DNA of 64,000 nucleotides from positions 4,420,001-4,484,000 of the forward strand of contig NZ_LT906480.1 of assembly GCF_900186865.1 (NCBI RefSeq), given 5' to 3'. This document shows, one piece after another, positions 45,228 through 53,344 of the stretch (positions are counted from its first letter, which is position 1; every line of letters starts with the position of its first letter). Under the pieces are notes generated by a model that worked only from the letters and a program-made list of their open reading frames with translations, searched no databases and was not told where the DNA came from. This DNA is from Stenotrophomonas maltophilia. Its GTDB lineage: Bacteria > Pseudomonadota > Gammaproteobacteria > Xanthomonadales > Xanthomonadaceae. Made by a program: the position numbers and the translations under genes.

Positions 45228-45611
<384 letters not shown>

Positions 45612-45621
45612 ACGCGCGCAG

Positions 45622-45697
45622 GTAGTGCCGGCCGCTGGCCGGCAACCCCACGAACGATGGCAGGATGTTGCAGTTGCCGGCCAGCGGCCGGCACTAC
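45622..45697. repeat. Facing pair of SMAG-type repeats
   Basis: GTAGTGCCGGCC-gct-GGCCGGCA at 45622-45645 and an inverted copy ending in CACTAC at 45697 form a long cruciform between fis and the convergent lipid cluster. Confidence 0.88.
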
Positions 45698-45736
45698 CGG
45701 TAGAACCGCGCCATGCGTGGATGGAAGCCGGCAGAA

Positions 45737-46732
45737 TCAACCGCCGCCGCCCGCCTTCCAGTAATACCGCACCACGTGGAAGAACACCGGCGCGGCGAAG
45801 CACACCGAATCCAGCCGGTCGAGCATGCCGCCATGGCCCTCGATCATGTGGCCCCAGTCCTTGATGCCCCGGTCACGCTTGATCGCCGACATCACCAGGC
45901 CGCCCCAGAACCCCATCAGGTTGATCAGCAGCGACAGGCCGAACGCCTGCAGCGGCGTGAACGGGGTGATCCACCACAGCGCCGCGCCCAGTGCGCTGGC
46001 ACTCAGCACGCCGCCGGCGAAGCCCTCCACCGTCTTCGACGGCGACAGCTTCGGCGCGATCAGGTGCTTGCCCAACAACTTGCCCCAGATGTACTGCAGC
46101 ACGTCCGAGGACTGCACCACGATCACCAGGAAAGCAAACAGCAGCACGTTGCGCGAGGGGTCATGGCCCGGCACGTGCAGATTCAGCAGCAGCGGCACGT
46201 GCGAGATGCAGAACACGCAGATCATCAGCCCCCACTGCACCTTCGCCGTGCGTTCCAGGTAGTGCGTGGTATCGCCGCCGATGGTCGACAGGATCGGCAG
46301 GAACAGGAACGCATAGACCGGAATCAGCAGCGTGTACATGCCGTACCAGTCGATCCACACCAGGTAGTAGTGCCACGGCAGCACGATGTAGAACGCGGCC
46401 AGCAGCGCGTAGTAATCGCCTGAGCGGGTCGGCGCCAGGGTGATGAACTCGCGCAGTGCGAACAGCGAGATGATCGCGAACAGCACGATCACCCCGGCGC
46501 GGCCGAAGAACAGCGCCAGCCCGACCACGATCGCCATTACCCACCACGCGCGGATGCGCGACACCAGGTTGGCGATGACCGCGCTGGGCCGGCCGCGCTG
46601 GCGCCATCGCAGCGTTTCGGCCACCAGCGTGGCCAGTACCAGCACCGCACCGACGCCAGCGAACAGCAGGCCGGTCTGCTGGCCCACGCTCTGCGCTGCC
46701 AGGTCGCCGGACACATCGATCAGGAAACTCAT
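45737..46732 (-). CDS. CDP-diacylglycerol synthase family protein (CdsA/YnbB-like)
   Basis: A 331-residue polytopic protein with about eight membrane segments. The signature SAIKRDRGIKDWGHMIEGHGGMLDRLDS near residues 285-312 matches the CdsA pattern S-x2-KR-x4-KD..HGG.xDRxD exactly. The enzyme would make CDP-diacylglycerol from phosphatidate and CTP. It is the last gene of a six-gene overlapping cluster, and its ATG overlaps the acyltransferase stop. It lies far from the usual cdsA context (uppS-dxr-rseP), so it is probably a paralogue dedicated to this cluster, comparable to E. coli YnbB. Confidence 0.9.
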   Translation of the reverse strand: MSFLIDVSGDLAAQSVGQQTGLLFAGVGAVLVLATLVAETLRWRQRGRPSAVIANLVSRIRAWWVMAIVVGLALFFGRAGVIVLFAIISLFALREFITLAPTRSGDYYALLAAFYIVLPWHYYLVWIDWYGMYTLLIPVYAFLFLPILSTIGGDTTHYLERTAKVQWGLMICVFCISHVPLLLNLHVPGHDPSRNVLLFAFLVIVVQSSDVLQYIWGKLLGKHLIAPKLSPSKTVEGFAGGVLSASALGAALWWITPFTPLQAFGLSLLINLMGFWGGLVMSAIKRDRGIKDWGHMIEGHGGMLDRLDSVCFAAPVFFHVVRYYWKAGGGG

Positions 46733-47358
46733 GCGCGCCCCCCGTTCGGCGCCAGGTCCAGCAGCGCCTGCCGGCTGCGGGCCAGGAAGGCCGCCTTGTC
46801 CTCGTCGGCCTGCAGCCGCAGCGGCGTACCGAAGGTGGCCGTGCACAGCAGCGGCAGCGGCAGGAACCGGCCCTTGGGCATCACCCGCTTCAGGTTGTCG
46901 ATCCACACCGGCACGAATTCCAGCTCCGGCCGTTGCCGTGCCAGGTGATAGATGCCGCTCTTGAACGGCAGCAGCGGCTCATCGCCCACGTTGCGGGTAC
47001 CTTCCGGAAACAGGATCAGCGAGCAGTCTTCGTCCACCGCGTCACGCAGGGCCTGCAGCGGATCCTGCTGGCGATGGCCGGCCTCGCGCTCGACCAGCAC
47101 GCCGTTGAACACCGCATCGATCAGGTAGCGACGCAGGCCGTCGCGCTGCCAGTATTCGGCCGCGGCAACTGGCCGCACCTGGCGCCGCAACGCAGGCGGC
47201 ATCGACGACCAGATCAGCACGAAGTCGCCATGGCTGGCGTGGTTGCCGTAGTACACGCGGCGCTCGCTGGACGGCGCGCAACCGATCCACAGCGCGCGGG
47301 CGCCGGTCACTACATGGATCGCACCACTGCAGGCGCGGGCAATCAGTTCGGTGAACAT
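46729..47358 (-). CDS. 1-acyl-sn-glycerol-3-phosphate acyltransferase family protein
   Basis: A 209-residue PlsC-like acyltransferase. The HX4D catalytic motif is His40-x4-Asp45 (YGNHASHGDF). LFPEGTRN is the substrate-binding FPEG motif, and VPVWIDNLKRVMPKG follows. It would add a second acyl chain to a lysophospholipid or similar acceptor. No long membrane anchor is seen. It is coupled to the CdsA-like gene (ATGA) and lies 13 nt after the small membrane gene. Confidence 0.88.
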   Translation of the reverse strand: MFTELIARACSGAIHVVTGARALWIGCAPSSERRVYYGNHASHGDFVLIWSSMPPALRRQVRPVAAAEYWQRDGLRRYLIDAVFNGVLVEREAGHRQQDPLQALRDAVDEDCSLILFPEGTRNVGDEPLLPFKSGIYHLARQRPELEFVPVWIDNLKRVMPKGRFLPLPLLCTATFGTPLRLQADEDKAAFLARSRQALLDLAPNGGRA

Positions 47359-47371
47359 TGGTCCCTCCCGT

Positions 47372-47809
47372 TCACGTCTGCGGCCACAACACGGCCAGCA
47401 CCAGCAGTGCGAACTGCACCGCTGTCAGCAGGTACTGGCGCAGCAGCAGGCGACGCATGCCGCCCCAGCGCGCGTCCCAGCCCCGCAGGGGCGCCTCGGG
47501 CGACGCGCGGCGCAGGCCACTGTCGTGCAGCAGCTGATCAGTGCGGCGCGCGGCGGCATCGCCGTCCAGGCGCTCATCGCGCAGCAGCTGCAGCAGGCTG
47601 GCGTCCAGCGCAACCCGCCACGCGTGGTACGTCTGGGCCACCCCTGCAGACATGCTGGCCAGCAGCAACCCTGCAGCGATCATCGCCAGGCCCGGCTCGG
47701 TGCCGAGCAGCAGCAATGCCACCAGCAGCAGCCCCAGCGACAGGCATGCCGGCCAACGCCCCTGCCGCAGCAGCAGCTGCATGGTCGCCAGATCGGGAAC
47801 CGTGCTCAT
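47372..47809 (-). CDS. Small membrane protein of the lipid cluster (145 aa)
   Basis: A 145-residue protein with two close membrane segments at about 20-60 (LSLGLLLVALLLLGTEPGLAM, then IAAGLLLASMSAGVAQ) and one at the C-terminus (LTAVQFALLVLAVLW). The loop between carries charged residues (RDERLDGDAAARRTDQLLHDSGLRR). I do not recognise it. Its ATG overlaps the stop of the PAP2-phosphatase gene, so it belongs to the same transcript. A scaffold or accessory role in the lipid pathway is a guess from position. Confidence 0.75.
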   Translation of the reverse strand: MSTVPDLATMQLLLRQGRWPACLSLGLLLVALLLLGTEPGLAMIAAGLLLASMSAGVAQTYHAWRVALDASLLQLLRDERLDGDAAARRTDQLLHDSGLRRASPEAPLRGWDARWGGMRRLLLRQYLLTAVQFALLVLAVLWPQT

Positions 47810-49134
47810 GCGCGCACTCCTGCCGCGTCGGTGATGGCACGCAGATGGGCCGTACCCAGCACGATGCCATGGCGCGCAGCACGCACGATCGCCACCGCCG
47901 CGTCCGCATCGGCCGCACGACCACTGCGCAGCAGCCAGGTGGCCACGCTGGCGGCGCTGCGCGAATAGCCCAGCGCACAGCACACCAGCAACGGTCCGTG
48001 CGCATGCAGGCGCTCGATGGCCTCGGCCGCTTCGCGCAGCTGTTCCGGTGCAGGGACCACCAGGTCCAGCATCGGCACGCTGGCATACGCGGCGCCCTGC
48101 GCGCGACAGGACAGCTCGGCGCAGGCATCCACCGCGCCCCCCAGTGGCGGCGGCAACGCGCCGTTGGGAATGCGGCCCAGCCACACGCCGTCCAGCACCG
48201 GCACCGGCTGCGGCGCACGCCGCGTCCACAGCCGCGAGTTGATCCAGGCAGCGCCCAGGTACGGGGCCAGCAGCCATCGCGCGGCCATCGTCAGGCGGCC
48301 ATCGGCGCGCTTCTGGAACACCGCTGTACCCAGCCCGGCATAGGCCAGCGCCACCAGCAGCAACGACGTCACCGGCCACAGCAGCCACAACGCGGCGCCA
48401 CGCAGAAGCACCACCGGCACCAGCAATACAGCGGCCCCCAGCAGGTACAACGCTGCCAATCGCCAACGCCTCGCATCACGCGCGGTGTGCCAGGCCCGCA
48501 ACGGTGGCGTGCCCTGCTCCGGCCACAGCCAGACGCACAGCCAACCGGCCAGCAGGCCGGTCGGGATATCGATGAAATGGTGCTGGAACGTGGTCAGCAC
48601 CGAGACGCCGATCAGCAGTGCCCACACATGCAGTAGCCCGCGCCACGCGCCATGCAGGTACTGCGCGAACTTCACCCACAGCAAGATCAACAACACGATG
48701 TGCAGCGACGGCGCCTGGTTGAACGGCTTGTCGAAGCCCAGCAGCACATCGAACAGCCAGCCGAACACACCGCCGATCTCCGGACGCTCGAAGCTGAAAC
48801 GCAGCGGCCACAGCAGGAAGCAGGCCACCGCGATGACCTGCGCACTGAACAGCCGCAGCGCGTGCCGGTCCAGCTCCAGCCGTTGCCGGCACAGGAAGAA
48901 CGAGATCGCGTAGAACAGGTCGATCGACCAGTACGGCACGATCGTCCACGGCACGAACGGGATGCGTGTCTCCCACGCGAACGCCATCACCGGCAGGGTG
49001 GCGTGGCGGCCGGCCATCCAGTTGGCGAAGCCGTAGCTTGCGAAGAAGAACGGACCCAGCAGGGCCAGCCACAGCAGGGCGCGCCGCCAGGGGCGCCCTT
49101 CCGCGGCCAGCGGGGTTGCGGCGAGCGTCGCCAT
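47806..49134 (-). CDS. PAP2-like/dual-specificity phosphatase fusion (YnbD-like)
   Basis: A 442-residue protein. Residues about 1-300 form a polytopic membrane domain with PAP2-like elements: FNQAPSLHIVLLI (motif PSLH) and FQHHFIDIPTGLLAG (motif HxxxD). The first K-x6-RP motif is not obvious. Residues about 305-442 form a dual-specificity phosphatase with the CX5R loop CCALGYSRSAASVA. Two phosphatase folds in one chain match E. coli YnbD. The likely substrate is a lipid phosphate intermediate. A GTG sits one codon before the chosen ATG; the ATG overlaps the upstream stop (TGATG). Confidence 0.88.
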   Translation of the reverse strand: MATLAATPLAAEGRPWRRALLWLALLGPFFFASYGFANWMAGRHATLPVMAFAWETRIPFVPWTIVPYWSIDLFYAISFFLCRQRLELDRHALRLFSAQVIAVACFLLWPLRFSFERPEIGGVFGWLFDVLLGFDKPFNQAPSLHIVLLILLWVKFAQYLHGAWRGLLHVWALLIGVSVLTTFQHHFIDIPTGLLAGWLCVWLWPEQGTPPLRAWHTARDARRWRLAALYLLGAAVLLVPVVLLRGAALWLLWPVTSLLLVALAYAGLGTAVFQKRADGRLTMAARWLLAPYLGAAWINSRLWTRRAPQPVPVLDGVWLGRIPNGALPPPLGGAVDACAELSCRAQGAAYASVPMLDLVVPAPEQLREAAEAIERLHAHGPLLVCCALGYSRSAASVATWLLRSGRAADADAAVAIVRAARHGIVLGTAHLRAITDAAGVRA

Positions 49135-50885
49135 CACGCGGTCCGGCGCGCCAGCGACACGGTGAAGATGCCGAAGTCGTCGATGCGCTGCGCCACCTTC
49201 TCGAAACCGGCCAGGCGCACCAGCTCATCCATCTCCTGCTGGGTACGGCGACGCATCACCCACGCCGCGCCACCGCGATGGCTGGTCAAGGCGCGCGCGA
49301 TGAATTCCAGCTGCGGGTGCCAGGGTTGGCCGGTGTAGGCCAGGTAGCCTCCCGCCGGCACCGTTGCGGCGATACCCTGCAGCGAGCGCAGCACGGCGTC
49401 GTTGTCGGGGAACAGTTCGTACAGGCCCGAGACCACCGCCAGTGTCGGTGCTGGATCGACCTTGGCCAGTTGCGCCGGATCGAACGCATCGCCCTGCTCG
49501 AAGCGGGCGATGTCGGCCGCACCGAGGCGCTCGATCAACGCTTGGCCCTGGGTCACGTTCAGATCGCTGAAATCACGCAGCACGATACGGTCGGCGCGCT
49601 GTTCGCCCTGGCCCAGCGCTTCCAGCACATACCGGCCATGGCCGGCGGCCACGTCCAGCACACGCACCGGCGTGCCCTGCCCGCGCAGGCGCTGGGCAGC
49701 GTCGCGCAGCAGTTCCTGCAGGTGCTGGCCGCGCACGCGGATGCCACGCCAGCCGATTGCATCCAGATAGTTGCGATCGACCATGCGACCCAGCGGGCCC
49801 TTGCCACGCGCTTCGTCGCGATAGATGTAGTCCAGCGTGCTGCCGGAATCGAAACCGGTCTGCAGGCCCAGCGCGATGCCTTCGAACAAGGTTCCGCCGA
49901 AACGCAGGCCGCCACGTACCACGCGCCAGCGCAGGTCGGACAGGCTGTTGCGCTCCGGTGGCCACGCCAGGACCTCCGATTCCTCGAAGGTCGGCCCATG
50001 GCGGTGCGCGTCGCGCCGTGACAGCTCGCGCAGCGGCTCGGCAAAACGCGCCTGGATGAAGCTGCGGATGCGCGCCAGTGCTGGTGCACGATCACGCTCG
50101 CCCAGCGTGTCGTGGAAGAAGCCCGGCAGATGCACGCGCTCCTTGATCGGGCTGGACAGGCGCTCGTAGAAGCGGTCCTGCGGGCCACGGTGCACGACGA
50201 AATCCGAGCCGGACACCAGCAGCTGCACCGGTACGCTGATCGCCTGCGCATCGGCCACGATGCGGTCGGCCGCCTCGTACAGGCCCAGCAGCACGCGCAC
50301 CGAAATCGGCCGGGTGATCAGCGGGTCGGTGCGGTAGCTTTCCACCCGCGCCGGGTCATGGGTCAGCCACTGCGGCTTGACGTAGCTGTTGACGAAGAAG
50401 TTTCCGCGCAGCTTCTGCATCAGGGTCAGCCCCGCACGTGCGAACGGCACGTACAGCTTCACCTTGAATGCCGGCGAGGCCATCACCAGCGCACGCAGGC
50501 GCGGTGCGTAATCGTGCACCCACGTGGCAGCAACCACGGCGCCCACGCTCTGCGCGATCACCACGATGTTTTCCACCGCGATGCCGTGTTCGGCGCCGAT
50601 GTGGGCGATGAAACTGTCCAGGTCACGCACCAGCGCCGGGAAGCCCGGTGCATCGCCACGTGCGCCTGGCGACCGGCCGTTGCCACGCGCATCCCAGGCG
50701 AAGAAGGCGGTGTCGGGCAGGTCCAGCTCGTCGACCAGGTGAGTGACGCGGCCGGAGTGCTCGTGGCCGCGGTGCAGCAGCACGATGGCCTTGCTGGCCG
50801 GGGCTGCGGTGGTGCCCGGCCAGTACCGGTAAAACAGCGGTACTTGGTCGAAGCTGTGGAATTCCCGTTCCTGCGCCTGACGCAT
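49134..50885 (-). CDS. Alpha/beta-hydrolase/SAM-methyltransferase fusion (YnbC-like)
   Basis: A 583-residue cytosolic fusion. Residues 1-290 form an alpha/beta hydrolase with oxyanion region VLLHRGHEHSGR, WDARGNGRSPG and nucleophile elbow IAQSVGAVVA (Ser within AQSVG). The downstream His is probably in LPGFFHDTLGE. Residues about 300-583 include a Rossmann methyltransferase with VRVLDVAAGHGRYVLEAL. The same fusion exists as E. coli YnbC. It could hydrolyse an ester and methylate the product or a headgroup. No substrate is known. It is the second gene of the lipid cluster. Confidence 0.85.
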   Translation of the reverse strand: MRQAQEREFHSFDQVPLFYRYWPGTTAAPASKAIVLLHRGHEHSGRVTHLVDELDLPDTAFFAWDARGNGRSPGARGDAPGFPALVRDLDSFIAHIGAEHGIAVENIVVIAQSVGAVVAATWVHDYAPRLRALVMASPAFKVKLYVPFARAGLTLMQKLRGNFFVNSYVKPQWLTHDPARVESYRTDPLITRPISVRVLLGLYEAADRIVADAQAISVPVQLLVSGSDFVVHRGPQDRFYERLSSPIKERVHLPGFFHDTLGERDRAPALARIRSFIQARFAEPLRELSRRDAHRHGPTFEESEVLAWPPERNSLSDLRWRVVRGGLRFGGTLFEGIALGLQTGFDSGSTLDYIYRDEARGKGPLGRMVDRNYLDAIGWRGIRVRGQHLQELLRDAAQRLRGQGTPVRVLDVAAGHGRYVLEALGQGEQRADRIVLRDFSDLNVTQGQALIERLGAADIARFEQGDAFDPAQLAKVDPAPTLAVVSGLYELFPDNDAVLRSLQGIAATVPAGGYLAYTGQPWHPQLEFIARALTSHRGGAAWVMRRRTQQEMDELVRLAGFEKVAQRIDDFGIFTVSLARRTA

Positions 50886-50919
50886 GCAATCTCCTGATTG
50901 TCTTCTTGTATCTGCTTGA

Positions 50920-51537
50920 TTAATTCGACGAAACCGCCGTTTCCCGCAGTCCGCGACGGACGCGATTGATCATCGTCAGCACGCACAGCACCGCCATGGC
51001 CGCGGCCACGCCGCTGACCGTCATCGCACCACCCCAGCCGAACGCCAGCAGCAGGCCCAGCACGCCGATCAGGAAGGCGCGGTCGCTCTTCCCCATCGGG
51101 CCGTCATAGCGGCGGCTGGCCCCGACCATCAGCCCCAGCACGCCGGCGTATTCGCTCAGCGCCGCGGTCCAGGCCAGCAGCCACAGTGCCTCCGGGCGCA
51201 CGCCGGGTACGCTGAGCAGGCTCAGGTACAGCGCCGCATCGGCGATCACATCGCACAATTCGTTCAGATAGGCGCCCAGCCGCGATTGCTGGCCGAATTC
51301 GCGCGCCAGCATGCCATCCACGGCGTTGAGCGCCATGCGCAGCAGCATCCACAACGGCAGCAGCAGGTACAGCAGAGGCTGGGCAGGCGCGCAGCACCAC
51401 ACGGCCGCGGCCACCAGCAGCGAGACCACGGCGGCGGCCACGGTCACCGTGTTGGCGGTGATGCCGAGGCGGTAGAGCCCGCGCACGGCCGGACGCAACA
51501 GGTCCTGGAAACGTCCTTTCAATGCATAGATCGACAT
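50920..51537 (-). CDS. CDP-alcohol phosphatidyltransferase family protein (YnbA-like), altered motif
   Basis: A 205-residue enzyme-like membrane protein with about five membrane helices. The family motif is recognisable (NAVDGMLAR at 71-79, then G88 and the YLNELCD end at 96). Two of the four conserved Asp are Asn: Asn71 in place of D1 and Asn92 in place of D3, while Asp74 and Asp96 remain. Normal members bind two metal ions with these Asp residues to exchange CMP for an alcohol. The ATG at 51537 begins the product. It is the first gene of the cluster. Whether it is active, altered or regulatory is open. Confidence 0.88.
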   Translation of the reverse strand: MSIYALKGRFQDLLRPAVRGLYRLGITANTVTVAAAVVSLLVAAAVWCCAPAQPLLYLLLPLWMLLRMALNAVDGMLAREFGQQSRLGAYLNELCDVIADAALYLSLLSVPGVRPEALWLLAWTAALSEYAGVLGLMVGASRRYDGPMGKSDRAFLIGVLGLLLAFGWGGAMTVSGVAAAMAVLCVLTMINRVRRGLRETAVSSN

Positions 51538-51760
51538 GATCCGTACCCGCTGATCCTTGGCAGTGCGGGCACAGCCTACCCCATCGTCGGCTGATTCCGA
51601 CAACCCGGCGCCGGTCCGTGGCCCAGGCCCCTGATCGGGCCGGATCAATGTGCCCAACCCGGTCCTGGGCCGATTGCGGCGGCAAATTACCCCTTCCGGC
51701 ACCCGCCACCGGCCCCCACCGCCTACAATATCGGCCCCGCTCCGCTGCCGATTCTGTCCC

Positions 51761-53344
51761 ATGACTGCTGATCTGTTGCCCGTCCGCCGGGCCCTCCTCT
51801 CCGTTTCCGACAAGACCGGTCTGGTCGAGCTGGCCACTGCGCTGGCGGCACGCGGCGTGGAGCTGCTGTCCACCGGCGGCACTGCCAAGGCGATCCGCGA
51901 TGCGGGCCTGGCCGTGAAGGACGTGGCCGACGTCACCGGCTTCCCGGAAATGATGGACGGCCGGGTCAAGACCCTGCACCCGATGGTGCACGGCGGCCTG
52001 CTGGGCCGCTCCGGCCTGGATGACGCAGTGATGGCCGAGCACGGCATCGGTGCCATCGACCTGCTGGTGCTGAACCTGTACCCGTTCGAATCTGTCACCG
52101 CCAAGGCCGACTGCACCCTGGCCGACGCGGTCGAGAACATCGACATCGGCGGCCCGGCCATGCTGCGTTCGGCGGCCAAGAACTTCGCCCGCGTGGCGGT
52201 GGCCACCGACCCGTCGCAGTACGCCGAACTGCTGGCCTCGCTGGCGGCCAACGACGGCCAACTGTCGGCCGCCACCCGCTTCGCGTTCTCGGTGGCCGCG
52301 TTCAACCGCGTCGCCCAATACGATGCGGCGATCAGCAACTACCTGTCGGCGGTCACCGCCACCGACGCCGCCGTGCCGGTGCGTGCCGAGTACCCGGCAC
52401 AGATGAACTCCACCTTCGTGAAGGTGATGGATCTGCGCTACGGCGAGAACCCGCACCAGAGCGGCGCGTTCTACCGCGACCTGTACCCGGTGCCGGGCAC
52501 GCTGGCCACCTTCCAGCAGCTGCAGGGCAAGGAACTGAGCTACAACAACCTGGCCGATGCCGACGCGGCGTGGGAATGCGTGCGCCAGTTCGATGCACCG
52601 GCCTGCGCCATCGTCAAGCACGCCAACCCGTGTGGCGTGGCCGTCGGTGCCGGCAACGGCGATGCCTACGAGCTGGCCTACGCCACCGACCCGACCAGCG
52701 CCTTCGGCGGCATCATCGCCTTCAACAAGCCGCTGGACGCCGCCACTGCCAAGGTGATCCTGGACCGCCAGTTCGTGGAAGTGCTGATTGCCCCAGACTA
52801 CGAGCCGGCCGCGCTGGAATACGCGCAGAAGAAGGCCAACGTGCGCGTGCTGCGCATCCCGCATGGTGATGGCCTGAACAACTTCGACAGCAAGCGCGTG
52901 GGCTCGGGCCTGTTGCTGCAGTCCTCGGACAACCGCGGCATGACCCGCGACGAGCTGAAGGTGGTCAGCAAGCTGGCGCCGACCGACAAGCAGTTCACCG
53001 ACCTGCTGTTCGCCTGGAAGGTGGCCAAGTTCGTGAAGTCCAACGCGATCGTCTATGCCAAGGACAACCGCACCATCGGTGTCGGTGCCGGCCAGATGAG
53101 CCGCGTTTACTCGGCCCGCATCGCCAGCATCAAGGCCGCCGACGCGAGCCTGGTGGTCGAAGGTTCGGTGATGGCCTCCGATGCGTTCTTCCCGTTCCGC
53201 GACGGCATCGATGCCGCTGCCGCCGCCGGCATCAAGGCGGTCATCCAGCCGGGCGGTTCGATGCGCGATGCCGAAGTGATCGCCGCCGCCGACGAACATG
53301 GCCTGGCGATGGTGTTCACCGGCGTGCGCCACTTCCGCCACTGA
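51761..53344 (+). CDS. purH: Bifunctional AICAR formyltransferase/IMP cyclohydrolase
   Basis: A 527-residue enzyme for the last two steps of de novo purine synthesis. The N-terminal IMP cyclohydrolase part has [30 protein letters not shown] and [13 protein letters not shown]. The C-terminal AICAR transformylase part has [27 protein letters not shown] and [17 protein letters not shown]. The start is ATG 51761. It lies just upstream of purD, the usual pairing. In the common order it follows fis, from which the lipid cluster now separates it. Confidence 0.97.

Follow-up and report, generated by a model that had tools for sequence, protein, structure and literature searches.

A six-gene lipid cluster of Stenotrophomonas maltophilia, counterpart of Pseudomonas aeruginosa arc1, is predicted to specify an inducible phospholipid pathway

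The stretch of Stenotrophomonas maltophilia DNA analysed here, 64,000 nucleotides long and hereafter called the window (assembly GCF_900186865.1, contig NZ_LT906480.1, positions 4,420,001 to 4,484,000), contains a cluster of six intact open reading frames (ORFs) on the minus strand (45737-51537), comprising in the order of transcription ynbA-like, ynbC-like and ynbD-like genes, a gene for a small membrane protein, a plsC-like gene and a cdsA paralogue (cdsA2), the homologue of ynbB (Table 1). An earlier note on this DNA had described these six genes in this order and on this strand between fis and purH, and all six ORFs were indeed found intact at that place. The overlaps it had reported can be read from the sequence at three of the five junctions, TGATG at ynbC/ynbD (given the ATG at 49134) and ATGA at ynbD/small protein and plsC/cdsA; the ynbA/ynbC and small protein/plsC junctions have no overlap and are spaced by 34 and 13 nt, respectively. 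The note's assignment to a dedicated phospholipid gene set homologous to Escherichia coli ynbABCD is borne out by identities of 44% for YnbA, 39% for YnbB, 55% for YnbC and 44% for YnbD.

Comparison of the predicted proteins assigns the cluster as the Stenotrophomonas counterpart of antagonism resistance cluster 1 of Pseudomonas aeruginosa, whose genes PA2541-36 were named arc1A-F in 2022 (PMC8926400), and we count this correspondence as shown. It was judged on a Pseudomonas relative, locus L188 of genome G407, whose cluster consists of these six genes, likewise ordered, and is partly matched by the published primers: three of the eight primer strings for PA2541 and PA2536 match it exactly, G407 being the one match in 25 genomes of the genus, and since the other five strings have no match there, G407 is probably a relative and not PAO1 itself. 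The PA2541 forward primer equals the first seven codons of the L188 YnbA ORF, the R2 primer of the PA2541 deletion lies inside the ynbC ORF, and the F1 primer of the PA2536 deletion lies inside the ORF of the small protein, while the published PA2536 junction GGAGGCC-TGA-G-ATG-AACGAA, with the stop one base before the ATG, is the plsC/cdsA2 boundary of L188. All six proteins of the window match their L188 counterparts, with 37-67% identity (YnbA 59%, small protein 37%, CdsA paralogue 67%). Both clusters have a site of the CsrA/RsmA type at the start of the first gene; they differ in that the window cluster has fis and purH as flanks and two A(N)GGA sites, against one such site in L188.

Five of the six arc1 genes were described as concerned with phospholipids, four of them resembling enzymes of phosphatidylglycerol synthesis; the cluster is under Gac/Rsm control with a very low basal level, and its mutants survive poorly when attacked through the type VI secretion system (T6SS) of Burkholderia thailandensis (PMC8926400). 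A role in resistance to lipase effectors was reported in 2025: mutation of arc1A raises the sensitivity to Vibrio cholerae, to a smaller degree if the attacker is without active TseL and with arc1A there auxiliary to arc3A, and likewise the sensitivity to Acinetobacter baylyi carrying Tle1 only (PMC12663445). A passing mention of arc1 is found in PMC11888443. In PMC8926400 the letters A-F stand for PA2541-36, yet PA2541 of the primer list is called Arc1F in the methods, which leaves it uncertain which end of the cluster is meant by 'arc1A'; the three-gene core described below includes both. The term 'uncharacterised' in the earlier note has to be given up, because these defence phenotypes have been published for the six-gene set (PMC8926400, PMC12663445) and work on E. 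coli YnbB also exists (PMC6362211). The defence role and Gac/Rsm control are published for P. aeruginosa and are predicted for the Stenotrophomonas cluster. Our literature searches, mostly without subscription papers, found no paper linking arc1 with ynbABCD, and the main texts of PMC8926400 and PMC12663445 do not contain 'ynb'. The arc1-type gene set is hence already published as a defence cluster; new here are the core standing alone, the two asparagines in the YnbA motif, the absence of PF07994 from the cluster genomes and the model of the YnbD membrane half.

Table 1. Features of the cluster and of its immediate surroundings (positions within the window)
Feature	Position	Strand	Details or basis
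ynbA-like, CDP-alcohol phosphatidyltransferase homologue	50920..51537	-	205 aa; PF01066 (CDP-OH_P_transf) 33.1 bits
ynbC-like, fusion of alpha/beta hydrolase (monoacylglycerol-lipase-like) and Methyltransf_20	49134..50885	-	583 aa; PF12146 (Hydrolase_4) 227.5 bits, PF12147 487.6 bits
ynbD-like, fusion of PAP2-fold membrane domain and dual-specificity phosphatase	47806..49137	-	443 aa from GTG, 442 from ATG
Small membrane protein	47372..47809	-	145 aa; without known family
PlsC-like acyltransferase	46729..47358	-	209 aa; PF01553 52.2 bits; NHxxxxD and FPEGTR motifs
CdsA paralogue (YnbB homologue)	45737..46732	-	331 aa; PF01148 (CTP_transf_1) 232.2 bits
ACGGA, CsrA/RsmA-like site of A(N)GGA type within the ribosome-binding region of ynbA	51540..51544	-	sequence
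AAGGA, second site of A(N)GGA type, 5' of ynbA	51554..51558	-	sequence
Perfect inverted repeat just 3' of the cluster, 26-nt arms and 26-nt loop	45621..45698	.	sequence
fis, left flank of the insertion site	45336..45611	+	ORF list
ORF containing purH, right flank of the insertion site	51650..53344	+	ORF list, flank comparison

In an even sample of 398 genomes of Pseudomonadota, the YnbC methyltransferase family was found in 27, including the source genome of the window, and 22 of these 27 carry the complete six-gene set in the same order and on the same strand. In two of the remaining five, ynbA is reversed and neither plsC nor cdsA2 was found; in a third, plsC and cdsA2 are the reversed genes; a fourth has just ynbA-ynbC, and the last has ynbA-ynbC-plsC-cdsA2. 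A further 80 loci were taken from named genomes as the best 80 of at least 567 relatives, a set biased to close relatives in which two loci repeat genomes of the even sample; the nearest of these place the window in the Stenotrophomonas maltophilia group, six of them with 96-98% identity in YnbC. Pooled, and with E. coli included, these gave 108 loci, from which nine were dropped for short contigs. Among the 99 with enough sequence on both sides, all six genes are present in 92 and stand in order on one strand in 90 (88 of 97 once the two duplicated genomes are removed). The recurrence of the six-gene order is not chance; the genes occur together widely, and the rarity which the earlier note had named as a ground for abandoning its reading was not found. 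Species with the cluster include P. protegens (L091) and S. rhizophila (L069). At one locus (L053, 9008-11161), a gene for a 717-residue WG-repeat protein is inserted between ynbC and ynbD of an otherwise complete cluster.

The genes fis and purH adjoin in six of six relatives without the YnbC family, with 98-244 bp between the match ends; in the window they flank the cluster and both lie on the strand opposite to it. Among 26 cluster loci inspected, 17 are flanked by fis and purH (some with extra genes between), four have purH only in the fetched stretch, and five have neither. The fis/purH site is that of the cluster in most Stenotrophomonas, Xanthomonas and Lysobacter loci examined, and the cluster lies elsewhere in others. 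Between fis and the end of the cluster lies an inverted repeat whose arm, TAGTGCCGGCC-NN-TGGCCGGCA, is present in seven copies in the window at up to two mismatches (0.01 expected), and which belongs to a dispersed repeat family with positions at 45621-45698 and also at 289, 4846, 23087, 32976 and 60059.

Homologues of all four ynbABCD genes are linked in the window cluster, which departs from the exact four-gene arrangement A-B-C-D by two additional genes and another position of the cdsA-type gene. E. coli YnbA has the same two asparagines in its motif as YnbA of the window; plsC and the small-protein gene were not found beside ynbABCD, in which the cdsA-type gene comes second, whereas it is the last in the window cluster. 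Since E. coli has four of the six genes and most loci have the complete set, six genes are the usual form and ynbABCD is a reduced one, which reverses the earlier view that the acyltransferase and the small protein extend the ynb set. In E. coli, the glycolipid MPIase increased when YnbB was overproduced, YnbB was unable to stand in for CdsA in making bulk phospholipid (PMC6362211; reviewed in PMC7018664), and a ynbB knockout was reported without significant change in MPIase (PMC6362211). Polyphosphate built up in a transposon mutant of ynbC in one strain background but not in the Keio one (PMC2435150), ynbC is one entry in the list of mutated genes of a persistence study (PMC13313352), and BglJ-RcsB has been named as an activator of ynbA expression (PMC12871917).

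A smaller unit was revealed by searching the 398 genomes with YnbA, which gave 46 matches, 37 strong and nine weak. Ten of the 37 strong matches occur without the YnbC family, and in eight of these ynbA, cdsA2 and plsC lie side by side (of the other two, one looks degraded and one is alone). Loci were fetched for six of the nine weak matches, taken here as a second YnbA subfamily, with plsC and cdsA2 adjoining in five; in one genus, plsC and cdsA2 lie beside ynbA of this subfamily in 16 of 16 matching genomes. As the core is found standing alone, acylation, CDP-lipid formation and headgroup transfer would be the constant part of the system, with YnbC, YnbD and the small protein as add-ons. Locus L179 (8062-8735, genome G110), where ynbA and cdsA2 match only as short fragments and plsC has no match, resembles a decaying core. 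At locus L180 (8040-8708, G287) a YnbA relative stands by itself, with neither cdsA2 nor plsC matched next to it; the two motif positions that vary are A and N in this protein.

Several neighbours of the core loci were recorded. In G098 (L184, 6367-14453) the core of the second subfamily (plsC, cdsA2 and the CDP-alcohol transferase) lies directly downstream, on the same strand, of genes for VgrG, DUF4123, a Tle1-like phospholipase and DUF2931, and in G480 (L225) matches to DUF2931 and Tle1-like genes are also found near such a core. A link to the T6SS from genome context was rejected as a rule, since a neighbour of the Tle1-like and DUF2931 type is present at only two of the 16 core loci of the genus. 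A GGDEF-EAL gene lies just upstream of the core in four of ten scanned loci of one genus (L213, L214, L215 and L218) and may hint at control by cyclic di-GMP there. Pfam scans of the genes beside odd or core-only loci gave no consistent clue to the headgroup.

The CDP-alcohol phosphatidyltransferases are characterised by a motif with four aspartates, DxxDGxxARx8GxxxDxxxD. The window YnbA is a member of this family by profile, its match to PF01066 lying above the curated cut-off of 22 bits, but a variant by motif, which reads N71-xx-DG-xx-AR-x8-G-xxx-N92-xxx-D96 and departs from the four-aspartate pattern. Aspartates occupy all four positions in the three other family members of the genome and in the solved relatives whose alignments were inspected. 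Asparagine at positions 1 and 3, with the aspartates at 2 and 4 kept, was found in 109 of 109 cluster loci (two of which repeat a genome), in nine of the ten loci with YnbA but without YnbC (the tenth has A/N), and in six of six and 16 of 16 loci of the second subfamily, G098 being counted in both sets. A further stretch, GPxGKSDRA with x free, follows the motif and is invariant in 18 YnbA sequences.

No NCBIfam cut-off was reached by YnbA. The best match was to archaetidylinositol-phosphate synthase (73 bits, cut-off 180), the phosphatidylinositol-phosphate synthase equivalog gave 48.3 bits (cut-off 170) and PgsA 19 bits, so that the nearest characterised relatives by profile are inositol-phosphate transferases, with which YnbA shares the fold family and most of the motif. 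The solved inositol-phosphate synthases, a comparison that did not include archaetidylinositol synthases, have aspartate at positions 1 and 3 where YnbA has asparagine. They also differ in the GPxGKSDRA stretch of YnbA and in that the cluster genomes are without inositol-phosphate synthase: PF07994 was found in none of the 27 cluster genomes and in five of 14 control genomes, E. coli not among these. Given this absence, the acceptor of YnbA is likely to be some polyol or alcohol that is not inositol phosphate.

The hydrolase half of YnbC matches a monoacylglycerol lipase (PDB 6qe2, E 1.8e-17) and shows weak likeness to lysophospholipase L2; its S113, D228 and H258 are invariant in 17 sequences. 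A PDB search with the methyltransferase half gave no useful relative (best E 0.11) and hence no clue to the methyl acceptor. YnbD is composed of a PAP2-fold membrane domain (about residues 1-300) and a dual-specificity phosphatase domain (about 305-442), with Pfam scores of 33.8 bits for DSPc, just over the cut-off of 33.5, and of 19.3 bits for PAP2, under the cut-off of 27.2. The fold search with whole YnbD was dominated by phosphatase hits, the phosphatase half matching dual-specificity phosphatases and PTPMT1, and the membrane half was therefore modelled alone. The closest matches of its model are sphingomyelin-synthase-related protein, IPC synthase and Aur1, followed by G6PC1, LpxE and PgpB. 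The likeness to these headgroup transferases is distant (10-13% identity), with phosphatases scoring close behind, and YnbD differs from them in possessing the dual-specificity phosphatase as well. The label 'phosphatase' that had been given to the PAP2 half is accordingly uncertain, and E. coli YnbD was reported to fail in replacing PgpA/B/C or the C55-PP phosphatases (PMC7413402). The small membrane protein had no match in Pfam and NCBIfam up to E 0.1, and the motif residues of the PlsC-like protein are conserved to at least 97% in 102 sequences.

As to regulation, PA2541 has been listed with a known site for the CsrA homologue around its Shine-Dalgarno sequence (PMC4066749). In a scan upstream of ynbA, a usable start was available in 107 of 118 listed loci, the rest being left unscored. 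A(N)GGA was found at 77 of 100 cluster-locus starts (66 of 88 distinct 30-mers), compared with 154 of 719 in a crude set of control starts taken from these loci, and in three of seven core-only loci. With a rough control, related sequences and a motif that itself resembles a Shine-Dalgarno sequence, this enrichment is consistent with control by RsmA and is not proof of it. The source genome has one CsrA gene, and translation from the ynbA start would likely be held back by CsrA/RsmA until a danger signal arrives.

Taken together, we think it rather probable that the arc1 counterpart is an inducible phospholipid-building pathway, as predicted from its genes, which would likely help cells to withstand phospholipase toxins injected by competitors. 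Its most likely form is the inducible synthesis of a headgroup-modified phospholipid from lysophosphatidate, for membrane repair or shielding. Acylation of lysophosphatidate by the PlsC-like enzyme would be followed by formation of CDP-diacylglycerol through the CdsA paralogue, and YnbA would attach a headgroup other than inositol phosphate from the usual synthase. These three steps would constitute the core, to which YnbC, YnbD and the small protein would be accessories: the PAP2-fold half of YnbD may move the headgroup and its dual-specificity phosphatase half may take off a terminal phosphate, and YnbC may remove acyl chains from lipids that are damaged or are intermediates, besides methylating the product. 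The danger signal would lift the repression at the start of ynbA, and in E. coli the system would exist in a shortened form, as ynbABCD.

Other functions were considered for the gene set. It might be an emergency second line for phosphatidylglycerol, in which phosphatidylglycerophosphate from YnbA is dephosphorylated by YnbD to restore ordinary phosphatidylglycerol after an attack. We regard this as unlikely, since the profile scores of YnbA place it nearest to the archaetidylinositol-phosphate and inositol-phosphate synthases (73 and 48 bits) and a long way from PgsA, its two asparagines are unlike the motifs of the genome's other family members, and a strain deficient in phosphatidylglycerophosphate phosphatase did not regain growth with E. 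coli YnbD (PMC7413402). An equally low probability is given to salvage only, by which the YnbC hydrolase and the PlsC-like enzyme would clear or re-acylate the lysophospholipids made by phospholipases, and no new lipid would arise. The monoacylglycerol-lipase-like hydrolase with its weak resemblance to lysophospholipase L2 would suit such a role, as would the sensitivity of arc1A mutants to lipase effectors alongside arc3A and aas, both of which deal with lysophospholipids (PMC8926400, PMC12663445); however, the conserved core ynbA-cdsA2-plsC exists without YnbC, and its constant CDP-lipid steps are not needed for salvage.

A role in support of MPIase and of membrane-protein insertion, as published for E. 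coli YnbB, is very improbable for the cluster as a whole. The effect of YnbB overproduction, together with the failure of YnbB to substitute for CdsA in bulk phospholipid (PMC6362211, PMC7018664), speaks for it, but the knockout left MPIase without significant change (PMC6362211), Pfam revealed no glycosyltransferase in the cluster, and it is not obvious where YnbA, YnbC, YnbD and PlsC would act in such a route. Least credible of all, and close to dismissed, is the synthesis of phosphatidylinositol by YnbA as inositol-phosphate transferase and YnbD as phosphatase: the closest characterised relatives of YnbA would fit, but YnbA stays under both NCBIfam cut-offs, and an inositol lipid as the product is disfavoured by the absence of PF07994 from all 27 cluster genomes, as well as from E. 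coli, which has ynbABCD.

The headgroup-modified phospholipid proposed above may be part of a wider picture, which we put forward tentatively and hold to be possible rather than probable. The asparagine-type CDP-alcohol phosphatidyltransferases, nearly always accompanied by their own CdsA and PlsC, might represent a new branch of phospholipid synthesis with a headgroup undescribed in these bacteria, to which the arc1/ynb form would add YnbD (headgroup transferase-phosphatase) and YnbC (deacylase-methyltransferase), resulting in an inducible armour against injected phospholipases common to Stenotrophomonas, Xanthomonas, Pseudomonas and E. coli. The correspondence described here joins three threads, namely a gene set of E. 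coli, a defence cluster of Pseudomonas and a widespread gene set of Stenotrophomonas and Xanthomonas, and the lipid product is directly testable in E. coli K-12. If the cluster does make a new inducible phospholipid, this would be a chemical armour of bacteria against phospholipase toxins, and would give a function to the variant active site of a large enzyme family.

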